Assembly: GCA_028867595.1 (NCBI GenBank)
Contig: JAGWGB010000014.1
Coordinates: 1-36,878 of the forward strand
DNA from: Nitrososphaerota archaeon
Lineage (GTDB): Archaea; Thermoproteota; Nitrososphaeria; Nitrososphaerales; Nitrosopumilaceae
Reading direction: 5' to 3'
DNA length: 36,878 bases
Of the stretch, positions 1,699-21,760 are shown piece by piece. Position 1 is the stretch's first letter. Each line of letters starts with the position of its first letter. The position numbers and the translations under genes were made by a program. The notes under the pieces were generated by a model. That model was not told the origin of the DNA, searched no databases, and worked only from the letters and a program-made list of their open reading frames with translations.

Positions 1699-4539
1699 GT
1701 GATTTTGTACAGCTCATCGACACAAGCCAATCCACCGCCGCGTGACGCAAGCAAATATGTCAAGATAGGAATAGCGGCCATAATTGCAATTGTGATCTTT
1801 GTGATGGGCAGCAACCAAGCCGTTGTCTTGTACATGAACTTCCAAGAATTTGGAACTCTCTTTACAAAGCCTCTGTACTTTTCGTTGATATCCGCACTTG
1901 TCTTGTCATCTATAGCACTAATCAGAGTAAACATCAAGAACAGGTCATCTATTTCTTGGTACTCGTTACACGTTGTACTATCATTTCTCAAAAAAGGAAG
2001 TTATGGTGCCGCAGAAGGAATTCCTAACTTTAAAGATTACAAACTAAGCATTCCAAACTTTGTTATCTGGCAGATAACAAAGGTCTTGCTCTTTGGTGCA
2101 TTCTTTACCAATCTTATTTTTGGATTTGCGGTAACATACCTCTTACAAGGAAATGACTTGGGAATAAACAGCATATGGAATATCTTTTCACTTCCGTTTG
2201 TCACACCGCCATCTGATCCTGCATATGCAGTAAACCATGTTGTTCCAATGATTCCTTCGCTGACAATTCTTGTACCTCCGTTACTAGCTGTTATCGGACT
2301 GCGACTTGTACTGTACGTTGGATTGCATAACATGGTGAGAATAATTGTAAGCTATATCCAAGACGCATCAGGCGGCAAACCAAAGTTTCTTGATTATGTA
2401 TCTACAATTGAGGGAATAATCGGAGTAGGAGTGATATGGGCCGCATTCAACATGTTTTTCACAGAGCAGATAGACTACAATACCAAATACCAGATTGCGG
2501 GAACTTTTGCAGCAGGCTTTGCACTGATTGCATTTTATTTCATTGACAAGTTCAAGGCCAAAGTAATCATTCATCCGTCAAAGCGAGACATCTACATACG
2601 CATAGTTACACTAATCGTCATAGCAATAATAGCAGGCTCGATAATGGTTGTAAACAACAGCATAGCTGACGCAAGAAAGATAGAGTATCTTGGGCCATAC
2701 AAGGCACAGCAGATTGGAATAAACAGGTATCTGGGACAGCTGGATCAGATATCTGTCGTACCGCATAACGTAAAGATCTCACCTGTCTCGCCTGACCAGA
2801 TCTCAAATTATGTTGCTGCAAACAATGACGTGCTTGATAAAGTAAGGGTATGGGACTGGGATGCTGCATTTGCAAAACTCAAGCCGGAAATTGGATTGAT
2901 ACCCTATGTAGACTTTGAAGACAATGACATCCTTAGATTTAACGACACGCTATACTGGACTGCATCGATGAAACCAATTCTTCCGTCATCAGTCAGTGCA
3001 GAAAACGTGTGGTACAACCAACACTTTGTATACACACACGTTGACAATGGATTTCTTACACTTGATGCACACAATGGAACCATAGTTGACAGCAGTCAAC
3101 TGTTCAAACAAAGGGTGATCTACTACGGAGAGGGAGGGCTATTTTCTGATACTTGGTCTGCATATCCTGTGGGAAGGACAAGCACGGCTGAGCTCAATAA
3201 TGCTACTTATTCGGGAACAGGAGGCCTTGATGTCAGTCCACCGGCAAGCCAACTCTTTGAGCCAAACTTTTTCTTGTCGTATCCTACCGAACCGATACAC
3301 ATCATGCGTTACAGGGACATACATGACAGAATGCAGTTGCTATATCCGTATTTTCAGTATAATTTGTTTGGAACGCAGGTAAGCTCGCTGCCAGTAACTG
3401 ACGGACACAAAACTTACTGGCTCATGCCACTCATAGCTGGGTTTGATACAAAAAATGTACCGTGGTCTGTCAGTAATCCGTATCTGAGACTGGTAGGATA
3501 TGCATTGATTGATACATACAATGGAAATGTCACCATGATAAAGACTGGCGATGATTTCTTTACAAACATGTTCTACAGTCAGTACAAAGACAAGTTCATA
3601 GATACACCCGCATGGCTTGACAAGCAACTTAGGTATCCCGAAGAGCTCTTCAACTGGAAAGTGGACATGTTCAACATTTACCATGTAACTGACACATCGA
3701 CGTTTATCCAGGCAAATGACTTTTACGAGGTTCCAGACGGCGTTGGAACATACTATGTAGAGGCCAAGCCTCCTGGATTTGACAAGCCGACATATCTTGG
3801 ACTGCTCTCGCTAGAACTTAGGGGATCTGCCGGAAGGAACCTAGCAGGATTTATGACAGTTCAAAATGATGTGCCAAACCTTGGAAAGATGCAATTTTAC
3901 GAAGTTCCACTAAACTCTAGTACAAAACTACTAGGCCCGTCTTCTGTTAGCGAAGCATTAGACAAGGACTCTGATTTTAGGCAGCTAAAGACACTACTGC
4001 AGAGTCCAAGATATGGTGATAACATCTTGTACCGAATAGGAAACCAAGACGTTTACTTTATTCCTGTATACACTTCGGGTACTGGTGGAGTTGTAACGCA
4101 ACTTGGAACAATTGCAGCAGTCGGTGCTGCATTTGATGGTGAGTACTTTGTAGGGCTGGGAAACACTCCGCAGCAGGCATTTGCTGCTTATCTTGCAAAG
4201 CTCAGTGGAGTAGAGCCAGAAAATGTAACTGCCGCGCTCACACTAGACGAGTCCTCAAGAATATCTGCAATTAAATCAGTACTGCAGGATGAAAAGCTTA
4301 CAGTTGTTACTCCGACAACAATACAGCTGCCACTTACTTTTGCAGAAGGCAAGATGTTGTTCCAGCAACCGTCTGATCTTAACAACACAAAGGCACTAAT
4401 TGAAAACTTTGTCAAGGACTTTGTACAGCCAAATAACAGGATAATACTGTGGCAGGAAAACAATACCGTAAACTTGGGTGCTATCATCGTTAACAACAAC
4501 ATACCGGAACTGCACTACATCTCGATAGGGGTAGGATAG
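1699..4539 (+). CDS. UPF0182 family large membrane protein
   Basis: A 946-aa protein with about seven hydrophobic segments in the first 320 residues (for example near 20-40, 60-80, 125-150, 190-215, 235-255, 265-285, 300-325) and a large hydrophilic, probably extracytoplasmic, C-terminal region. The arrangement and blocks such as the LYWTASMKP segment and the DAHNGTIVD segment match the UPF0182 (COG1615) family, known mainly from bacteria and of unknown function. The GTG start at 1699 lies close behind an AGGAAGG (1688-1694); a TTG at 1705 is an alternative. A possible TATA (ATTAATTT, 1673-1680) precedes it. The stop codon abuts the start of the downstream amidotransferase, so the two are probably cotranscribed. 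No function can be assigned from sequence. Confidence 0.85.
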   Translation: MILYSSSTQANPPPRDASKYVKIGIAAIIAIVIFVMGSNQAVVLYMNFQEFGTLFTKPLYFSLISALVLSSIALIRVNIKNRSSISWYSLHVVLSFLKKGSYGAAEGIPNFKDYKLSIPNFVIWQITKVLLFGAFFTNLIFGFAVTYLLQGNDLGINSIWNIFSLPFVTPPSDPAYAVNHVVPMIPSLTILVPPLLAVIGLRLVLYVGLHNMVRIIVSYIQDASGGKPKFLDYVSTIEGIIGVGVIWAAFNMFFTEQIDYNTKYQIAGTFAAGFALIAFYFIDKFKAKVIIHPSKRDIYIRIVTLIVIAIIAGSIMVVNNSIADARKIEYLGPYKAQQIGINRYLGQLDQISVVPHNVKISPVSPDQISNYVAANNDVLDKVRVWDWDAAFAKLKPEIGLIPYVDFEDNDILRFNDTLYWTASMKPILPSSVSAENVWYNQHFVYTHVDNGFLTLDAHNGTIVDSSQLFKQRVIYYGEGGLFSDTWSAYPVGRTSTAELNNATYSGTGGLDVSPPASQLFEPNFFLSYPTEPIHIMRYRDIHDRMQLLYPYFQYNLFGTQVSSLPVTDGHKTYWLMPLIAGFDTKNVPWSVSNPYLRLVGYALIDTYNGNVTMIKTGDDFFTNMFYSQYKDKFIDTPAWLDKQLRYPEELFNWKVDMFNIYHVTDTSTFIQANDFYEVPDGVGTYYVEAKPPGFDKPTYLGLLSLELRGSAGRNLAGFMTVQNDVPNLGKMQFYEVPLNSSTKLLGPSSVSEALDKDSDFRQLKTLLQSPRYGDNILYRIGNQDVYFIPVYTSGTGGVVTQLGTIAAVGAAFDGEYFVGLGNTPQQAFAAYLAKLSGVEPENVTAALTLDESSRISAIKSVLQDEKLTVVTPTTIQLPLTFAEGKMLFQQPSDLNNTKALIENFVKDFVQPNNRIILWQENNTVNLGAIIVNNNIPELHYISIGVG

Positions 4540-5088
4540 TTGCTGCTGGTTGTAGACAACGGCTCTGTCTACACAGGTTCCATCATAGAATGTCTAAAAG
4601 AGATAAAGGCTGACCACAAGCGTGTTGCATTTGACAAGATAACTGAACAAGACATTGAAAACTCGCGCTATATCGTTCTATCTGGAAGAACACGAAATGA
4701 TCCGTTGATGAATATGACAAATTCTAAATTGATACGCTATGCGCTTGCAGAGAAAAAGCCCCTCCTTGGAATATGCTATGGGGCAGAGATCCTTGCAATA
4801 ACACTTGGGGGGACAATAAGAAAGATGGAGCAACCGCGGCACGGCATACACGAGGCAACTGTTCTCAAGGAAAATTTTTTGTGCAGCGGAAAGCTAAAAG
4901 TGTTTGAGAGTCATTCGTACAAGGTTTCTGCACTGGATTCATGCTTTGATACAATAGCAAGCTCAGATGCGTGCAAGTTTGAAATGTTTCAGTACAGGGA
5001 CCAAAACATTTTTGGAACGCAGTTTCATCCTGAGATGAGCGAAGACGGAAAACGCTTGCTAAAAAATTTCACGTCAGCCAAGAATTAA
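4540..5088 (+). CDS. Class I glutamine amidotransferase (GuaA glutaminase-subunit-like)
   Basis: A stand-alone 182-aa GATase1 domain. The nucleophile is Cys79 in GICYG, and His163/Glu165 in the FHPE motif complete the triad. The length and the opening VVDNG resemble the separate glutaminase subunit of archaeal GMP synthase. However, the usual SGGP oxyanion motif near residue 48 reads SGRT here, and no synthetase subunit is nearby, so the acceptor is uncertain. The TTG start follows the UPF0182 stop with no gap (TAG-TTG), implying translational coupling. It may be GuaA subunit A or another ammonia-transferring glutaminase; I am sure of the fold and the catalytic residues, not of the pathway. 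Confidence 0.8.
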   Translation: MLLVVDNGSVYTGSIIECLKEIKADHKRVAFDKITEQDIENSRYIVLSGRTRNDPLMNMTNSKLIRYALAEKKPLLGICYGAEILAITLGGTIRKMEQPRHGIHEATVLKENFLCSGKLKVFESHSYKVSALDSCFDTIASSDACKFEMFQYRDQNIFGTQFHPEMSEDGKRLLKNFTSAKN

Positions 5089-5113
5089 TAACGCTGGGAT
5101 AGCGCTTTACCTC

Positions 5114-6061
5114 ATGGAATCTGGCCACTCACTTGATGTACCAATAGTGCAGGAAGAAAACATCTGCTTACCACTAGTAATAAGCGCCGTCTCAAAATAT
5201 TGGGGAGTAGACTTGCCCTTGGCAGAAGCAAAAGAGATTGCCAAGAGATATCCTGGAGTAAAGGGAACAATACTGATTGAAGGAGTGGAGCTTGCTGAAA
5301 GACACGGTCTTGCAAGCACAATCTTGAATTCATCGATGAAGGAACTGCGTAGGTTCATCGACATGGGGATTCCTCCAATTGTGATCTTGCCTGGAATCAA
5401 GGACGTTGTGCAGCATGCATCTCTAGTTGTTGGCTATGACGAGACAGAAAAAACTGTTTTTCACTACATTCCAGAGCCTGACAAGATTGGTGCGATACCA
5501 GAGGAAACATTTGACAAGCAGTGGCAGGAAGACGACAGGCTGATGCTCTTGCTTGCTCCGCCTGACATAATGGCTGATGCAAAGATTGCAAATGACAACA
5601 AGACAAGATCTAACAGGCTTTGCTTTGATGCAGAAAAACTGCGGCTGCAGGGAAAGACCAATGAGGCAGTATCATTGTTAAAAAATGCACTTGAGGTAAA
5701 CCACTCCAACTCTACTGCATCCTGTCTTTATGCTGGCATACTAAACGACATGAACCTCCAAGACGCAGTACAGTATTACAAAAAAAGCATAGACCTCAAC
5801 CAAAGGTGCTACCTTGCTTACCGAGGCCTTGGCAACTATTATCTCAAGGCAAAAGACTATGCAAACGCCGAGAAATACTATACAGATGCAATAGAGATCA
5901 ATCCATACAGGTTTGTGCCAATCTACAAGAATAGGGGGATTGCAAGGTTAGAGCAAGGCAAAACAGCACAAGGAAAAGGCGACCTTGAAAAATATCTGGA
6001 ACAGATGCCAGACGCGCAAGACAAAATAGCAATCTCTCAGGCAATAGCAGAGCTACACTAA
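5114..6061 (+). CDS. C39-like papain-fold domain fused to TPR repeats
   Basis: A 315-aa protein in two parts. Residues 7-150 resemble a C39-like cysteine peptidase: a VPIVQEENIC segment with Cys18, a helix ending SKYWG, then QHASLVVGYD with His101, and an Asp in a PEPD segment (Asp123) as a possible third residue. Residues about 160-305 are tetratricopeptide-like helices (motifs such as YRGLGNYYLKAKDYANAEKYY). There is no signal peptide or membrane segment, so it should be cytosolic, unlike C39 domains of bacteriocin exporters. The residue after Cys18 is Leu, where many peptidases have Gly, so activity is uncertain. It lies 25 bp after the amidotransferase, possibly in the same operon. Confidence 0.7.
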   Translation: MESGHSLDVPIVQEENICLPLVISAVSKYWGVDLPLAEAKEIAKRYPGVKGTILIEGVELAERHGLASTILNSSMKELRRFIDMGIPPIVILPGIKDVVQHASLVVGYDETEKTVFHYIPEPDKIGAIPEETFDKQWQEDDRLMLLLAPPDIMADAKIANDNKTRSNRLCFDAEKLRLQGKTNEAVSLLKNALEVNHSNSTASCLYAGILNDMNLQDAVQYYKKSIDLNQRCYLAYRGLGNYYLKAKDYANAEKYYTDAIEINPYRFVPIYKNRGIARLEQGKTAQGKGDLEKYLEQMPDAQDKIAISQAIAELH

Positions 6062-13615: not shown

Positions 13616-14149
13616 TTAGAAATCAATTCCTTTCTTTGCTCTTATGCCAGACTTGAATGGATGTTTTATCTCTCGCATTTCTGTAACCAAGTCTGCTACC
13701 TCTACTATTTCGTCCTTGACGTGGTTTCCTGTCAGCACCAAGTTTACATTTGCAGGCTTGGCATGTATCAATTTTAAAACATCACCAAGCTCAACTAGCC
13801 CCAAGTTTACTGCATAGTTGATCTCATCTAAAATTACAATGTTGTATTTTTGCGAAGCAATCTTTTCCTTTGCAATGGCAAGGGCCTCGGCTGCAATTTT
13901 TTTATGGTCTTCGATAGGACTCTTGTCGTCCATGATGCCAACAAATCCCTTTCCTACTGCAGTAAGCTCAAACTCTGGCTCTAGTCTTTTTGATGAGGTC
14001 ATCTCTCCATAGTGCCACGAGCCCTTGATGAACTGAACCATGCAAACTTTGTAATCATAACCCAATGCGCGAAGCGCCATCCCAAGTGCTGCTGTTGTCT
14101 TTCCCTTTCCCTTGCCTGTGTAAACAATAACCAGTCCGTCTTTTTCCAT
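13616..14149 (-). CDS. cobO: Corrinoid adenosyltransferase (CobO/BtuR family)
   Basis: ATP:cob(I)alamin adenosyltransferase of 177 aa that adds the 5'-deoxyadenosyl ligand. The modified P-loop YTGKGKGKTTAALG lies near residues 10-23, with VQFIKG and ILDEINYA following as in CobO/CobA/BtuR. The ATG at 14149 is preceded in frame by a TTG; either is possible. It stands divergently from a flavoprotein gene and close to cbiA, consistent with a role in de novo synthesis rather than salvage only. Confidence 0.93.
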   Translation of the reverse strand: MEKDGLVIVYTGKGKGKTTAALGMALRALGYDYKVCMVQFIKGSWHYGEMTSSKRLEPEFELTAVGKGFVGIMDDKSPIEDHKKIAAEALAIAKEKIASQKYNIVILDEINYAVNLGLVELGDVLKLIHAKPANVNLVLTGNHVKDEIVEVADLVTEMREIKHPFKSGIRAKKGIDF

Positions 14150-14225
14150 CAAAGATTGTTTTATTGCGGCAAGTAAAAATCTGACGCTTTGAAATGATTT
14201 GGCATAATCAGAAAAAAGGGTTATT

Positions 14226-15519: not shown

Positions 15520-16875
15520 TTGAAGATACCGCGCATAGTGCTATCGGGAACAAGCAGCGGAGTGGGAAAGACATCGATAACTGCTGCAATAATACATGGA
15601 ATCAAAAAACGTGGATACTCGGTACAGCCCTTCAAGGTTGGGCCTGACTTTATAGACCCGACATATCTTTCTGCAGTGGCGCAAAGGCCTGCGCGAAACC
15701 TTGATGCATGGCTGATGGGAAGACGCGGCGTACTCAAAGACTTTGTTTGCAACTCGTGCAGCGACATATCAGTAATAGAAGGCGTCATGGGATACTACGA
15801 TGGGTTTGCTGGAGGCTCTAACTTTGCAAGCACACACCACGTATCAAACATTGTTCAAGCGCCTGTCATACTGGTACTTGATGCAAGCAAAGCGGCACGC
15901 TCTATTGCCGCAACTGCATTGGGTTTTGTAAAATTTCATAAAAACTCAAGAATTTCTGGATTGATTTTAAATAAACTTGGAAGCAAAAAGCATGAAGACC
16001 TTTGCAGGCAAGCACTCTCAAAACTTGGAATTCCAATAGTCGGGGCAATTCCGCGCGACGCCAGCCTAAACTTGGAATCAAGACACCTCGGATTGATTCC
16101 AGTGGGCGAGATAAAATCGCTTGAGAAAAAAATACGCTCTATTGCAAAAGCATATTCTGATTATATCGATATTGAAAAAATAATTGAAATAGGTACCAAG
16201 ACCTCAAGCCTGCCCAAGATGCCTCAGAATGCCAATATGCCACAAAGAGCAAAGATTGCAGTAGCAGTAGACGAGTCATTCAATTTTTACTATCGCGAAA
16301 ATCTTGACTCGCTTCGCAGAGCAGGTGCATCGCTTGTCTTTTTTAGCCCAATTCATGACAAAAAGGTTCCATCATGTGACGGGCTCTATATCGGAGGTGG
16401 ATTTCCCGAAGTTAAAGGGGAGATGCTTGAAAGAAACAACTCCATGAAAAAAGAGATCAAGAAAAAAGCAGAGGAAGGAATGCCAATATATGCAGAGTGT
16501 GGCGGGCTGATGTACCTTACAAGGTCAATTAGGTACAAGGAGAAAAAGTTCAAAATGATTGGACTCTATGACGCTGATACCGTAATGCAGAAAAAACTCA
16601 AGCTAAACTATACCAAGGCACGAGTCTCAAGGCCATGTGTCGTATCAAGGGCAAACTCTAGTCTGCAAGGCCACGAGTTTCATTTTTCCGAGCTTGAATC
16701 AATATCAAAAGACTCTACATTTGCATACGAGATGGAGATTGGTGTAGGCATAAACAAAAAAAGAGATGGCATGTTACAATACAATACACTTGCATCATAC
16801 ATGCACATGCACTTTGCACAGCCAAACGTTGCAAAGACATTTGTTGACAACTGCATCAGAAAATCAAGAAGCTAG
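15520..16875 (+). CDS. cbiA: Cobyrinate a,c-diamide synthase CbiA
   Basis: ATP- and glutamine-dependent enzyme that amidates the a and c side chains of cobyrinate. The N-terminal synthetase domain has the P-loop GTSSGVGKTS (residues 9-18) and VGPDFIDPTYL. The C-terminal class I glutaminase domain has Cys327 in YAECGGLMYLT and a late HMHFAQP histidine. Length is 451 aa, normal for CbiA. The start is TTG at 15520. It ends 18 bp from the convergent cbiC stop. Confidence 0.95.
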   Translation: MKIPRIVLSGTSSGVGKTSITAAIIHGIKKRGYSVQPFKVGPDFIDPTYLSAVAQRPARNLDAWLMGRRGVLKDFVCNSCSDISVIEGVMGYYDGFAGGSNFASTHHVSNIVQAPVILVLDASKAARSIAATALGFVKFHKNSRISGLILNKLGSKKHEDLCRQALSKLGIPIVGAIPRDASLNLESRHLGLIPVGEIKSLEKKIRSIAKAYSDYIDIEKIIEIGTKTSSLPKMPQNANMPQRAKIAVAVDESFNFYYRENLDSLRRAGASLVFFSPIHDKKVPSCDGLYIGGGFPEVKGEMLERNNSMKKEIKKKAEEGMPIYAECGGLMYLTRSIRYKEKKFKMIGLYDADTVMQKKLKLNYTKARVSRPCVVSRANSSLQGHEFHFSELESISKDSTFAYEMEIGVGINKKRDGMLQYNTLASYMHMHFAQPNVAKTFVDNCIRKSRS

Positions 16876-16893: not shown

Positions 16894-17502
16894 TTAGAGC
16901 GCGTTTAATATTGCAGACGCACAGGGGCTTCCTCCCTTGCGCCCGACATTCGTGATGTGCGGAATCTGAGTCAAGGCAAGCTCTTCTTTTGATTCTGCGG
17001 CGCAGACAAAGCCGACTGGTATCCCAACTACGAGGGCAGGCCTGACTATGCCTTCCTTTGCCATCTGTACAATCTCCTGGAGTGCAGTAGGCGCGTTTCC
17101 TATTGCAACAATTCCACCGTCAATGTCCTTGGCACCAAGCCGCATCGCAGTCTGGGCCCGAGTCTTGTTTAGCCTCTTTGCTTCTTCTACAACTGCGGGG
17201 TCTGAGATGCTGCAAATCACCTTGTTTCCAAACTTGGAAAGGTTATCCTTGTTTAACAAGCCAACAACGCCGTTGACATCTACAACTATGTTGCATCCGT
17301 TTTTCAGTGCGTCAATTCCGCTCTCTATTGCTTGCTTGTGAAAAATTATCTTGTTTGCCTTGGCAAAGTCAAAGTCTGCAGTAGAATGTATCACGCGTTT
17401 TACTATGGTCCACTCATCTTGGCTGTAAGGATGTGGCCCAAGTTCTTTTTCTATTATTTCCATGCTCTTGTCTTCAATTGACTGGCCCTTTTGCGTAATC
17501 AT
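16894..17502 (-). CDS. cbiC: Cobalt-precorrin-8 methylmutase CbiC
   Basis: A 202-aa precorrin-8X methylmutase, which moves the C-11 methyl to C-12 to give cobyrinate. The catalytic His39 stands in VKRVIHSTADFDF, and the C-terminal VGIPVGFVCAAESKE and GRKGGSP segments match the family. Its ATG overlaps the cbiX stop by 4 bp (ATGA), showing translational coupling at the end of the cbiD-G-X-C operon. Confidence 0.95.
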   Translation of the reverse strand: MITQKGQSIEDKSMEIIEKELGPHPYSQDEWTIVKRVIHSTADFDFAKANKIIFHKQAIESGIDALKNGCNIVVDVNGVVGLLNKDNLSKFGNKVICSISDPAVVEEAKRLNKTRAQTAMRLGAKDIDGGIVAIGNAPTALQEIVQMAKEGIVRPALVVGIPVGFVCAAESKEELALTQIPHITNVGRKGGSPCASAILNAL

Positions 17503-18245
17503 TTTTCTGCCTCCACGGCTCTCTCAAGCACTAGATCGATCATTTTTTCGTCAGTTCCAAGATGCTCTGAGAGAAATATTTGTTTAATGTTAGATTGGGC
17601 AATAGCTGGAGTCAGATCTTCGTAAATGTCTCGCTTTACGTGAGCGCCCCTGTGCAAAAAATATGGTACCACAACAAGGCATTCTGGGTTGTTTTTTGAG
17701 CACGCTTCAATTCCTTGCTTTATGTTTGGCTCTTCTATCTCCAAAAAACAATAGTTGACATTTCTGTATGTCTTGCCAAGCCCGTCTGCAACATACTTGA
17801 GAGCTGACCTTGCCTCTGGGTCTTTGCTGCCGTGACCTATTACTAGTACGTCTACATTTTTTTTCTGTGCAGTAGATTTGTTCCTGTCAAGTATTTTTTC
17901 TATCTTTTCGTCTACAAGTGTTATCAGAGATTGGTGCATGTTCATCGGTTTTGATATTGAGATCCTAGCCTTGGTGCTTGATTGAAACTTTGTTGCTGTA
18001 TCTACTGCTGCCTTGACTTTTCTTCCTGGGTACAAAAAATATGGCACAATAGTAAGCGCGTCAATATCTGACAAGAGACATGTCTTGATGCCTTCTTCGA
18101 TATATGGGGGAATTACCTCAAGAAAGCAATAGTTTGTCATGTGATAGCCTCCCTTTTGCTTTACCTTATCACATATGTGCTGCAGCTCTTGCTTTACATC
18201 ATCCTCGTGGCTGCCCCTGTCTATTATCAATAATCCTCGCTTCAT
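17499..18245 (-). CDS. cbiX: Sirohydrochlorin cobaltochelatase CbiX, two-domain form with a degenerate N-terminal repeat
   Basis: A 248-aa tandem duplication of the CbiX fold. The C-terminal half keeps the metal-binding histidines: His138 in IGHGSKDPEAR and His202 in YFLHRGAHVKRDI. The N-terminal half aligns well (NYCFLEV against NYCFLEI, IVPYFLYPG against VVPYFLHRG), but the equivalent positions are Arg10 (DRGS) and Lys76 (GRKV). The protein therefore appears to have one cobalt-inserting site, in the second half. Archaeal CbiX is often a single-domain homodimer; this looks like a fused dimer with one subunit inactivated. It overlaps both neighbours by 4 bp. Confidence 0.92.
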   Translation of the reverse strand: MKRGLLIIDRGSHEDDVKQELQHICDKVKQKGGYHMTNYCFLEVIPPYIEEGIKTCLLSDIDALTIVPYFLYPGRKVKAAVDTATKFQSSTKARISISKPMNMHQSLITLVDEKIEKILDRNKSTAQKKNVDVLVIGHGSKDPEARSALKYVADGLGKTYRNVNYCFLEIEEPNIKQGIEACSKNNPECLVVVPYFLHRGAHVKRDIYEDLTPAIAQSNIKQIFLSEHLGTDEKMIDLVLERAVEAEK

Positions 18246-19324
18246 TTTAGAATCCTTGCAACTGCAATGGTAAGATTTGGGGGGAATTTCTGCTTTTCAA
18301 CTACTAGCGTGCCTCCTGAGCTCTTGATGGCAGATGCCTCGGACACGCTTGGGGTGCCCTCAAAGTTTTGTACAACCTCCGATGGGTTTGGTATTGTAAC
18401 TTGGGCAAGCTCCTGCTTTTCGTAATAGTCAACTGGAACACTCATGCTTTCTGCAAGCTCGCGCAAGCCTGCCACCTGGGCCTCTTTTTTGATTGATGAA
18501 AACTTGGCAACTGACTTGGGGCTGAGCTTGAACTTTGAGAGGGAAAACTCTAGACCCTCCTTGATTGTATCGCGACTAGTGTCCCAGTGCAGCCCCACTC
18601 CAACCACTAGGGTTTTTGGTCTGTACACGACTGCACGCTCGAGCACTTTTTTGTCCTCTACTATTTTATCTGTGATTATCAAAAATCCCTTGCAGTCTGA
18701 CCTTGCCATCTCGTCTATGCTTGAATAGACATGGACGTTTTTTGGAAGCTCCTTTTTTGGAAGCCACCAGTTTTTTTCACCGGCGTCTTGGAAGACTCCT
18801 ATTTTTTCTTCATTTACCATAAATGCGCTAATCTTTGTAACAGTCGAGTCGTCATCTATCTTCCATCCAAACTCTTTTCCAACAAGATCTACTGCAATAG
18901 TTTTGTTGACATCTGCTGCTGTTGTAATGACTGGAGTTGCACCAATCAGTCCTGCAATGTCTTCTGCAAGCTTGTTTGCACCTCCGAGATGGCCTGAAAG
19001 CATGCTTATGACAAACTTGGCAGCATCATCAATTACAACTACCGCTGGGTCTGTCTTTTTGTCCTTCATGTATGGTGCAACAAGACGTATTACTGCACCA
19101 AGAGAAAATATGCAGACAAGCGCGCTGTAACTTTGAAAGAGCATTCCTACCTTTGCGGTAGTAGATTCTTCAAACCAGTTTACTTTGGAATCGCCATTTG
19201 AAAACTTGGATGGGGCAAAGACTTGCCAAGAGGGAAACTTGGCCCTCAAATTTTTGGCAATATCTATTCCGTTTTTAGTAATTGCAATTATTGCTACAGT
19301 ATCCACAAAATGTCTTTTTTGCAT
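18242..19324 (-). CDS. cbiG: Cobalt-precorrin-5A hydrolase CbiG
   Basis: A 360-aa CbiG that opens the delta-lactone of cobalt-precorrin-5A. The central IFSLGAVIRLVAPYMKDKK and DPAVVVIDDAAKFVISMLSGHLGGAN segments are diagnostic. The C-terminal domain begins about VVGVGLHWDTS and contains LRELAESMSVPV. The ATG at 19324 lies 13 bp after cbiD, and its stop overlaps cbiX by 4 bp. CbiD acts before or with it in the same part of the anaerobic pathway, which fits the order. Confidence 0.95.
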   Translation of the reverse strand: MQKRHFVDTVAIIAITKNGIDIAKNLRAKFPSWQVFAPSKFSNGDSKVNWFEESTTAKVGMLFQSYSALVCIFSLGAVIRLVAPYMKDKKTDPAVVVIDDAAKFVISMLSGHLGGANKLAEDIAGLIGATPVITTAADVNKTIAVDLVGKEFGWKIDDDSTVTKISAFMVNEEKIGVFQDAGEKNWWLPKKELPKNVHVYSSIDEMARSDCKGFLIITDKIVEDKKVLERAVVYRPKTLVVGVGLHWDTSRDTIKEGLEFSLSKFKLSPKSVAKFSSIKKEAQVAGLRELAESMSVPVDYYEKQELAQVTIPNPSEVVQNFEGTPSVSEASAIKSSGGTLVVEKQKFPPNLTIAVARILK

Positions 19325-19337
19325 GTGAACATATCTG

Positions 19338-20438
19338 TTACTGTCTGGGAAACCTTCCTATGGTGTTGCCGTCAAAATCAAACATGATTACATCGATCTC
19401 AAACTTTTCTTCTGAATGCTTTCTTAGTTGGTTGTAGACCTCAGAGCAGACAAGGTCAAAGTATTTCTTGCCCAAGTTTTTGCCTGAGACAATCTCAAAG
19501 ACATGCCTTGCTGTATTTGCTTTTTTGATCTCCTCAACTGTATCAAGAGGTATGTTGCATCGCACGGCAATTTCTGCCAAAAACTCCATGTCTACCTTTG
19601 AGCCCTTGACATGGGTTTGCTTTACTCCCATCCCCATCTTGGTTAGCTTGCCAATGAACCCTGCAACATAGGCTTTCTTTATTCCCTTTTTTGCGCACTG
19701 CTGAACTGTATACCCGGAAAAGTCTCCCATCTGCACAAAGCAATGGTCTGGAAGGCTGACTATTTTTCTTGCAAAATCCTCGCTTCTTCCACCTGTTGTG
19801 AGAACTACAGTATCATTTCCCATGGCAATTGTAACATCAATGCTCTGCCTAATTGATGCAGCAAACGATGCTGTAGAATACGGCATTACAATTCCGCTTG
19901 TTCCAAGAATTGATATTCCGCCAAGGATTCCAAGTCTTGGATTGTCAGTCTTTGGTGCAAGCTCCCTTCCTTTTGGAACTGATATCAGTACCTTTATTCC
20001 GTTTTTTTTCAAAAGGTCTTGTGCTATCTCTGAAATGTTTTCAGTTATCATTTTTTTTGGAGTGGGATTGATTGCAGCAGAGCCCACCACTAGGCCAAGG
20101 CCGGGCTTTGTCACCCTGCCCACCCCCTCGCCGCCGTCTATCTCTATCTTTCCTATGTCATCTGTTATGGATACTGTAGTGTGTATCTCTGCACCATGAG
20201 TCACGTCTGGATCATCGCCGCCGTCTTTTATGACAAAGCAACTTGCAGAACTTTTGCTAAACTCGCATCTTTCTATCTTTATCTGTATCTTGGATTTTTT
20301 TGGAAGCGTAACGTTAACAGAACTTGTTTTTTCTTGGTTTAAAATGGCAAGCACTCCTGCCTTTGCACCTGCAGTAGCACAAGTTCCTGTAGTAAAGCCA
20401 GTCCTTAGTTTCCCCTTTGGCTTGTCAGACTCCATCAT
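19338..20438 (-). CDS. cbiD: Cobalt-precorrin-5B C1-methyltransferase CbiD
   Basis: A 366-aa CbiD, SAM-dependent C-1 methylation in anaerobic corrin synthesis. The N-terminus LRTGFTTGTCATAGAKAG is the family hallmark, followed by KDGGDDPDVTHG and a glycine-rich GEGVGRVTKPGLG. Two ATGs in a row (20438 and 20435) are possible starts. It is the first gene of a four-gene minus-strand operon (cbiD-cbiG-cbiX-cbiC). A TATA box lies 25 bp upstream, and the left end of a TnpB element begins about 10 bp beyond that box. Confidence 0.95.
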   Translation of the reverse strand: MMESDKPKGKLRTGFTTGTCATAGAKAGVLAILNQEKTSSVNVTLPKKSKIQIKIERCEFSKSSASCFVIKDGGDDPDVTHGAEIHTTVSITDDIGKIEIDGGEGVGRVTKPGLGLVVGSAAINPTPKKMITENISEIAQDLLKKNGIKVLISVPKGRELAPKTDNPRLGILGGISILGTSGIVMPYSTASFAASIRQSIDVTIAMGNDTVVLTTGGRSEDFARKIVSLPDHCFVQMGDFSGYTVQQCAKKGIKKAYVAGFIGKLTKMGMGVKQTHVKGSKVDMEFLAEIAVRCNIPLDTVEEIKKANTARHVFEIVSGKNLGKKYFDLVCSEVYNQLRKHSEEKFEIDVIMFDFDGNTIGRFPRQ

Positions 20439-20536: not shown

Positions 20537-21760
20537 TTGAAGGCAATCAAGTCTGTCAGGCAATCATACGTTCCAGATCCACGTACTTTTGATTTTCTTG
20601 AAACTTTTCGAGATATGGTAAATCACTGTATCAGAACAGGACTGCAAAATAATGCATGGGCGTTAAAGCGATTATCAAAGTTGTCGTATCGTGAATTGAT
20701 CCAGTATGATATTCCTTCATACTACAAACTATGCGCAATATCAAAGGCTGCAGGTATATTATCAAACAGAAGACAATCCATCAAGCGAGGAATCAATACA
20801 AAAAATCCCCATCTGAAAAAACCAATACTGATATCATGTTATGGATTCAAGCTTGAAGGTGATGTTTTCAAGATACCTCTTGGAGGCAGAAAGTATTTTG
20901 ATATTCCATTGAACCATCACACAAGGGAAGTGATACATGGCAACGGGAATGATGCTACCTTCAAGATAAACTCCTTTGTTCTTACTGCAGGTGCTATATC
21001 AATATCGTATTCAAAAGATGTACCGGAAATACAATGTAACAGTACAGCAGGAATTGACAGAAATCTCAGAAATGTTACTGTAGGAGACTGCAGTCAAGTA
21101 GTGCAGTATGACATATCAAAAGCTGCTAGGATTGCAGAGAATACAAGATCCATAACATCGTCTTTCAAGCGAGATGATCACAGAATCAGAAAACAACTGT
21201 ACTCAAAATATGGCACCAGAAGAAAAAATCGGATAAATCAGTTATTGCACAAGATCTCACAGGATGTTGTATACAATGCTGCGCAAAACAAACACGCCCT
21301 AGTCTTTGAAGACATTAGACACATAAGAAAGATGTATCAGAAAGGCAACTGGCAAGGGAAAAAACATCGCGGTACAATGAACGGCTGGTCATTTTCTGAG
21401 ATCAAACGCCAGATAGAATACAAGTCAAAATGGAGAGGCATTCCAATAATCCAGTTATCAAGACAAGATACCAGAGGAACGTCAAGACTGTGTCCCAGAT
21501 GCGGAAAGAGACTCCAAGACAAAGGGGCATGGAATACACCTGACCATAACAGGGAGCTCTGGTGTGATACATGTCAGAGATGGCAGGATCGTGATGTAAT
21601 AGCAGTCATGAACCAATCTCTGCGAGGGCTGCCAAGGCTTGGCAGTTCTAAAGGTGATGCAGGTGAAGCAATGAGGGGGAATGTGGATAACGCACTGCCG
21701 CTAATCCTTAGAGTCGATGCATCAAAGTTACAGTTGATAGGTCATAACCCGTCAACGTAA
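20537..21760 (+). CDS. tnpB: TnpB RNA-guided nuclease of an IS200/IS605-type element
   Basis: A 407-aa TnpB with a split RuvC nuclease: Asp174 in AGIDRNLRNVTV, Glu258 in LVFEDIRHIRK and Asp353 in RDVIAVMN. A four-cysteine zinc finger (CPRC at 319-322, CDTC at 343-346) lies between the last two, preceded by the QDTRGTSRLCP segment typical of TnpB. The catalytic set is intact, so it could be active with an omega RNA made from its own 3' end. The start is TTG at 20537. The frame remains open for about 50 codons past the last RuvC motif, through the proposed guide-RNA scaffold, and stops only a few bases past the right-end hairpin, which is unusual. The Asn usual after RDV is Ile. Confidence 0.9.
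   Translation: MKAIKSVRQSYVPDPRTFDFLETFRDMVNHCIRTGLQNNAWALKRLSKLSYRELIQYDIPSYYKLCAISKAAGILSNRRQSIKRGINTKNPHLKKPILISCYGFKLEGDVFKIPLGGRKYFDIPLNHHTREVIHGNGNDATFKINSFVLTAGAISISYSKDVPEIQCNSTAGIDRNLRNVTVGDCSQVVQYDISKAARIAENTRSITSSFKRDDHRIRKQLYSKYGTRRKNRINQLLHKISQDVVYNAAQNKHALVFEDIRHIRKMYQKGNWQGKKHRGTMNGWSFSEIKRQIEYKSKWRGIPIIQLSRQDTRGTSRLCPRCGKRLQDKGAWNTPDHNRELWCDTCQRWQDRDVIAVMNQSLRGLPRLGSSKGDAGEAMRGNVDNALPLILRVDASKLQLIGHNPST
21626..21756 (+). ncRNA. Putative omega RNA scaffold at the tnpB 3' end
   Basis: In TnpB systems the guide RNA comes from the 3' end of tnpB and the right end of the element. Here a strong hairpin CTGCCAA-GGC-TTGGCAG (21629-21645, extendable with wobble pairs to 21626-21648) is followed by a 64-nt stretch (21665-21728) that aligns without gaps, 48 of 64 identical, to a decayed copy at 33374-33437. 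The region ends in the right-end hairpin. The guide would be the sequence beyond 21756. Both the exact 5' and 3' limits are inferred. Confidence 0.5.
21733..21756 (+). repeat. Right-end hairpin of the TnpB element
   Basis: Imperfect palindrome with outer stem GTTGA/TCAAC and inner stem GGT/ACC around CATA. It ends in TCAA(C), a cleavage motif of several IS200/IS605 members. Confidence 0.45.

Follow-up and report, generated by a model that had tools for sequence, protein, structure and literature searches.

An archaeal tandem CbiX with an invariant Arg-Glu-Lys first half and a C-terminal His-Glu-His site

The tandem CbiX of ammonia-oxidizing Nitrososphaeria archaea (AOA) carries its complete set of metal-site residues in the second half. 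The first half has an arginine and a lysine at the two histidine positions and, judged by its residues, binds no metal, yet it has not decayed and is as strongly conserved as the second. The protein, labelled P0001, is encoded in a window of 36,878 nucleotides, which is the whole stretch of DNA that was analysed. It is most probably a sirohydrochlorin cobaltochelatase of the cobalt-early type, a one-chain class II enzyme with a one-sided, C-terminal metal site and an N-terminal lobe retained by selection. The two domains, the residue states with their invariance, the predicted fold and the operon are what was observed for this reading, while the role of the histidine pair, the cleft between the lobes and the substrate would carry over from the family by analogy. 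A one-sided C-terminal site is a known and already explained theme in the family; the apparent novelty is that an archaeal B12 enzyme carries a dead half fixed as Arg-Glu-Lys, which approximately mirrors the arrangement of bacterial SirB/CbiX-L. For natural waters, Thaumarchaeota have been put forward as important producers of vitamin B12 (PMC4303638).

The gene, its two halves and the metal site

The cbiX reading frame runs on the minus strand from 18245 to 17499, where frame 1 of the plus strand holds many stops, and its CbiX repeat stands far above chance because both halves match PF01903 (55.1 and 86.1 bits). Over the whole protein, PF01903 scores 137.5 bits in two stretches against a gathering cut-off of 22; the Pfam CbiK model exceeds its own cut-off (35.3 against 26.2 bits), and the NCBIfam CfbA model reaches 115.3 bits, below its cut-off of 120. 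A sequence-only reading of this DNA had described a tandem CbiX with homologous halves, which is borne out by the two matches and by 31% identity between the halves over the domain columns; likeness by chance or by misalignment was ruled out by the same matches and an HMM-based domain alignment. The nearest named relatives of P0001 are Thaumarchaeota MAGs at 85% identity or less and Nitrosotalea at 78% (L066), from which the host is taken to be an AOA. The features of the window are:

13616..14152, minus: cobO/btuR, corrinoid adenosyltransferase (PF02572, 215 bits)
15520..16875, plus: cobB/cbiA, cobyrinic acid a,c-diamide synthase (TIGR00379, 482 bits)
16894..17502, minus: cbiC, precorrin-8X methylmutase (PF02570, 244 bits)
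17499..18245, minus: tandem CbiX (class II sirohydrochlorin chelatase), P0001, 248 aa (ORF, Pfam and AlphaFold2 model)
17526..17834, minus: C-terminal CbiX domain, metal site complete (PF01903, 86.1 bits, E 2.7e-24)
17640..17642, minus: His202 codon, metal His 2 of the second half (H in 53/53)
17652..17654, minus: His198 codon, additional invariant His (H in 53/53)
17739..17741, minus: Glu169 codon, metal-site Glu equivalent of the second half (E in 53/53)
17832..17834, minus: His138 codon, metal His 1 of the second half (H in 53/53)
17910..18218, minus: N-terminal CbiX domain, metal histidines replaced (PF01903, 55.1 bits, E 1.1e-14)
18018..18020, minus: Lys76 codon, His position 2 of the first half (K in 53/53)
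18117..18119, minus: Glu43 codon, metal-site Glu equivalent retained in the first half (E in 53/53)
18216..18218, minus: Arg10 codon, His position 1 of the first half (R in 53/53)
18242..19324, minus: cbiG (PF11760/PF11761/PF01890)
19338..20438, minus: cbiD, cobalt-precorrin-5B methyltransferase (PF01888, 313 bits; TIGR00312)

The domain alignment places Arg10, Glu43 and Lys76 at the metal positions of the first half and His138, Glu169 and His202 at those of the second. The contrast of Arg10 and Lys76 with His138 and His202, drawn earlier from the letters, proved exact in residues and numbering, and the codons were confirmed; the third metal-site residue, a glutamate (43/169) retained in both halves, had gone unmentioned. 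An additional histidine, His198, lies four residues ahead of His202, and its counterpart in the first half is the invariant Tyr72. Outside AOA, a histidine at the position of His198 was seen among the typed proteins only in the haloarchaeal L232, which is without metal histidines. Other first-half histidines filling the site, the case that the earlier reading had named against itself, were not found in 53 diverse tandem homologues: among the first-half columns occupied in P0001, none is His in more than 7 of the 53, except position 104 (His in 44/53), which belongs to a later KPxSxH segment outside both metal motifs. Substitute histidines at the first-half metal site are thus ruled out, positions 10 and 76 being R and K in 53/53.

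The AlphaFold2 model of P0001, built on the alignment of these 53 proteins (A1), has a mean pLDDT of 94.6 and a pTM of 0.90, and its best structural match is SirB of B. subtilis (5zt7; Z 26.7, rmsd 2.3 A, 238 residues). It also aligns with FetB (Z 23.6), CbiK 2xvx (Z 23.3), ferrochelatases and Paracoccus CbiX 4ccs (Z 22.2). With SirB, CbiK and HemH the alignment covers residues 1-248, giving two CbiX-fold lobes in one chain, and the His-Glu-His set stands in one lobe only (H138/E169/H202 against R10/E43/K76), by which two-domain class II chelatases are recognized. The metal set of SirB is described as His10/Glu43/His76, with Arg134 and Leu200 at the positions of the second histidine pair of the CfbA homodimer (PMC11301274); by equivalence to Arg134 and Leu200, Arg10 and Lys76 would lie opposite His138-Glu169-His202 across the cleft. 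In docking of SirB, Arg134 contacts the substrate analogue, and the R134H change raises nickel insertion moderately (PMC11301274).

In the proposed mechanism, fusion of two CbiX domains would have given a two-lobed single-chain class II chelatase, whose C-terminal lobe would bind Co(II) through His138, Glu169 and His202 and pass it to sirohydrochlorin seated in the interlobe cleft. Metal binding would have been lost from the N-terminal lobe, which selection would nevertheless maintain. In this lobe, Arg10 and Lys76, at the second His-pair positions beside Glu43, would hold the acidic substrate and fill the would-be second metal pocket. Sirohydrochlorin has eight carboxylates, so the Arg/Lys pair would be well placed to hold it, and, Glu43 being retained, Arg10 and Lys76 could also act as a plug of the second pocket. 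We infer these precise jobs of Arg10 and Lys76, as well as cobalt as the metal and the single chain as the active unit.

The operon and the choice of metal

The gene order is cbiD-cbiG-cbiX-cbiC, all on the minus strand, with cobB and cobO near. Four nucleotides (ATGA) are shared by the cbiC start and the cbiX stop (17499-17502) and again by the cbiG stop and the cbiX start (18242-18245). A contig scan with P0001 as query gave 59 loci, close relatives only, of which 58 are archaeal by title; cbiC follows cbiX immediately downstream in 59/59, and cbiG lies immediately upstream in 54/59, that is, in every locus reaching that far (L066 by a partial match). The remaining title, Chitinophagaceae bacterium (L088), belongs to a contig carrying an AOA cbi operon with a CbiX 60% identical, and this is probably a misbinned contig. 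A TnpB-like ORF with a Cas12f1-like TNB domain (50.5 bits) occupies 20537-21760 of the window on the plus strand; it is divergent to cbiD, with 98 bp between the two starts.

The host genome of 1.68 Mb is 96.5% complete and gave no match to CobN. Since the cbi operon includes CbiG and CbiD and a CobN match is lacking, early cobalt insertion is indicated, and early insertion has been noted for Thaumarchaeota (PMC4303638). Candidate siroheme and heme genes were also found on one contig, with a SirC-like match, two AsnC_trans_reg2 (AhbA/B-type) matches in one frame and, close to that frame, hemA- and hemB-like ORFs assigned by eye; HemH had no match in the genome. Because of the SirC-like and AhbA/B-type matches and the lack of HemH, heme is probably made via siroheme in the host, which would then have to place iron into the same macrocycle.

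It is therefore conceivable, if somewhat doubtful, that the same CbiX is (also) a sirohydrochlorin ferrochelatase, inserting cobalt on the way to B12 and iron on the way to siroheme and the heme derived from it. This would fit the siroheme and heme genes just described, the absent HemH match and the single CbiX gene, there being no other PF01903 match in the genome in a search whose queries left out CbiK (PF06180). However, all 54 loci reaching both neighbours have cbiX flanked by cbiG and cbiC, a Met8-like SirC could itself insert iron, and in two genomes (G065, G087) the iron enzyme could be a second tandem CbiX, beside which no cbi gene was found. These second copies, off the cbi operon, are L239 (G087, about 3957-4700, minus) and L240 (G065, about 4398-5135, plus); they group together in the tree of halves, and an ORF resembling a SufC-type ATPase was seen by eye near one of them. 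They are possibly an iron-specific paralogue, but none of the B12 and heme query genes was found beside them, so that they leave the choice of metal undecided.

Conservation and origin of the first half

A domain HMM was built from the CbiX halves themselves, and the metal positions were read in each distinct domain row; the loci read were better-scoring or hand-picked ones, with no random draw and with L088 among them. Distinct first halves have R,K in 107 of 110, the remaining three being truncated at one column or at both (107/107 informative), and none of the 107 retains one or two histidines; distinct second halves have H,H in 112 of 113, with the last one cut off (112/112 informative). 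The tandem genes examined for the R/K first halves come from families f1, f2, f3 and f5, codes that are arbitrary labels and not taxon names. Single-domain rows have H,H in 51/61. Of the other ten, nine are without a first-column residue (second column H in five, K or R in four) and one is R,H. The ten include contig-end pieces of AOA second halves as well as remote members.

A profile scan found CbiX in 273/400 genomes of the class, and by hand count one match was present in 22 genomes, three in 3, four in 4 and two in the rest. Two matches are the rule in f1, f2, f3 and f5 (a single f5 genome has a match). In f9, one CbiX domain is followed in frame by CbiC in all five genomes, as in L034 of f25 in the same phylum, and other Thermoproteota have small stand-alone CbiX frames. 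Nine single-match genomes were counted by hand in f1 and f3, of which six were inspected (G224, G230 and G306 were left out). A natural one-domain CbiX of AOA was rejected for G118, G172, G286, G373 and G393, whose frames run off contig ends, and for G229, in which both halves are present with unread bases in the second. For the genomes in which three or four matches were counted, inspection covered G065, G087 and G238 and, by their matches only, G219 and G243, with G366 and G371 left out; G238 has two cbi operons, perhaps from a mixed assembly. In f3 genomes (L155, L156, L157, G259) the tandem CbiX lies inside an open frame of 489-594 aa, and in the three examined of four f3 genomes cbiC continues the same frame as a CbiX-CbiX-CbiC fusion.

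In the 53 tandem proteins of alignment A1, R10, E43, Y72, K76 and K78 are invariant in the first half and H138, E169, H198 and H202 in the second, and the two halves have a mean conservation of 0.60 and 0.62, respectively. Such invariance and near-equal conservation mark the Arg/Lys first half as a fixed state, not an intermediate.

The ancestry of this half was approached with a tree of halves of 80 rows and 115 columns, from which the two metal columns were removed and ten divergent rows dropped (both halves of L212, both halves of L216, and L128, L130, L190, L194, L203 and L205). Three sets each fell on one side of a branch: the first halves of AOA (100/99), the second halves of AOA (99/98) and those of bacteria (99/97). 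The deep forks were not resolved. An alternative origin, by which the dead first half of AOA and the dead second half of bacterial SirB/CbiX-L share a dead ancestor and the halves were reordered, appears unlikely. Both dead halves have Arg at position 1, and the likelihood leans slightly to this side, constraint of AOA first with bacterial second halves costing 2.0 lnL (AU p 0.46) and constraint of AOA first with AOA second halves 6.3 lnL (AU p 0.39), neither being rejected; the smaller cost speaks against a separate origin. Mean identities are opposite, AOA first halves being 26.9% identical to AOA second and 21.5% to bacterial second halves; moreover, position 2 is Lys in AOA but Leu in bacteria, the Glu is retained in AOA alone, and AOA first and bacterial second halves stay apart in the free tree. 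An independent, mirror-image inactivation of the AOA first half is thus possible, the trees deciding neither for nor against it. A more elaborate proposal is considered improbable as a whole. In it, Arg10 and Lys76, paired with Glu43, would permanently occupy the place of the second metal ion of the ancestral symmetric chelatase; with His198 added, the result would be a cobalt enzyme with one metal and one active side, of separate origin from SirB/CbiX-L and its mirror image, perhaps serving both the cobalt and the iron branches. The sequence-only reading had taken the protein for a snapshot between homodimeric CbiX-S and the asymmetric long chelatases, which would make it a transitional form with a first half decaying after loss of function; both histidines are indeed lost from one half, but with R10, E43 and K76 invariant, R/K in 107/107, histidines retained in 0/107 and conservation of 0.60 against 0.62, this claim falls and such a transition is scarcely credible.

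Comparison with known chelatases

Single-chain class II chelatases are described as keeping two histidines in either the N- or the C-terminal domain: the pair is N-terminal in CbiX-L and C-terminal in CbiK, SirB and the Paracoccus/Rhodobacter CbiX differ likewise, and the C-terminal domain of HemH carries a His and a Glu (PMC7689651). In Paracoccus CbiX the essential His127 and His187 belong to the C-terminal half (PMC4063343). The claim that the AOA active site lies in the half opposite to the one usually active in long CbiX therefore holds against SirB and bacterial CbiX-L, but in the family at large a C-terminal site is no rarity, CbiK, Paracoccus CbiX and HemH being C-terminal as well. A literature search by titles and abstract beginnings found no publication on the domain make-up of AOA CbiX.

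In a sampled set, residues were typed as triplets of the first His, the Glu and the second His position. In this set AOA proteins have R-E-K in 25/25 first and H-E-H in 25/25 second halves; bacterial tandem CbiX has H-E-H in 6/6 first halves and R-(A/G/T)-L in 5/6 second halves, the last column of the sixth being a gap; and archaeal single domains have H-E-H in 10/21, the remainder being mostly H-x-H. Arg and Lys together were seen in AOA rows only among the rows typed, and R-E-K was found in none of the non-AOA proteins typed, L228, L229 and L234 having been seen outside that typing.

CbiX-S/CfbA, considered the ancestral form in the literature (PMC7689651), has the His-Glu-His set that AOA CbiX retains in its C-terminal half, but is a single domain whose symmetric four-His site is built from two chains, whereas AOA CbiX has one chain and one His pair. 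CbiK of Salmonella and Desulfovibrio shares the C-terminal His pair and a similar fold (Z 22-23) and is described as a cobaltochelatase (PMC7689651), yet it is distant in sequence, at 13-15% identity in structural alignments. Two CbiX-like lobes and a His pair in the C-terminal one are also found in Paracoccus-type CbiX (4ccs; Z 22.2), but this is an alpha-proteobacterial siroheme ferrochelatase that inserts iron; a profile search admitting E values up to 1 did not list it, and the match is one of fold only. A plasmid-borne Azospirillum relative of 4ccs (E 1.5e-14), adjoining nirJ (heme d1), has H-R-L in the first and H-S-H in the second half, without the first-half Arg/Lys pair.

Plasmid searches for R/K first halves outside AOA found 15 and 12 records, of which 11/15 and 8/12 were fetched. 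The tandem CbiX of Natronorubrum (L212) keeps both histidines in its second half (H-D-H), as in AOA, but its first half is H-K-F, with the first His kept and Phe at the second position; motifs of Halorussus L228 and Deinococcus L229 are like those of L212, with GYF in the first half. In the haloarchaeal plasmid proteins L230, L232, L233 and L235, neither half shows a canonical metal histidine when aligned: the two positions hold R or T and D or E in the first half and F and A in the second, so that a metal site, if any, would lie elsewhere; L230, L233 and L235 directly adjoin other B12 genes. Metal histidines are in neither half of the tandem CbiX L216 of Nonomuraea gerenzanensis (Q-E-E, E-S-L), from a record labelled plasmid that at 11.85 Mb is chromosome-sized.

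SirB and bacterial CbiX-L share with AOA CbiX two fused CbiX domains, a single His-Glu-His set and, in the dead half, an Arg where the first His would be. Their live half, however, is N-terminal, whereas that of AOA is C-terminal, and the dead half is R-(A/G/T)-L in 5/6 sampled bacterial proteins, against R-E-K in AOA. CbiX-L of B. megaterium is reported to have a C-terminal extension with an MXCXXC 4Fe-4S motif and a His-rich region (PMC7689651); the 248 residues of P0001 contain no M-x-C-x-x-C and no tail beyond the second domain. How a symmetric homodimeric chelatase became a one-sided monomer has been posed as an open question (PMC11301274), for which AOA CbiX is a natural, well-conserved case. 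Since Arg and Lys have taken the place of its histidines, and in the other half than in SirB, the roles of such dead residues could be tested by point changes in a small protein.
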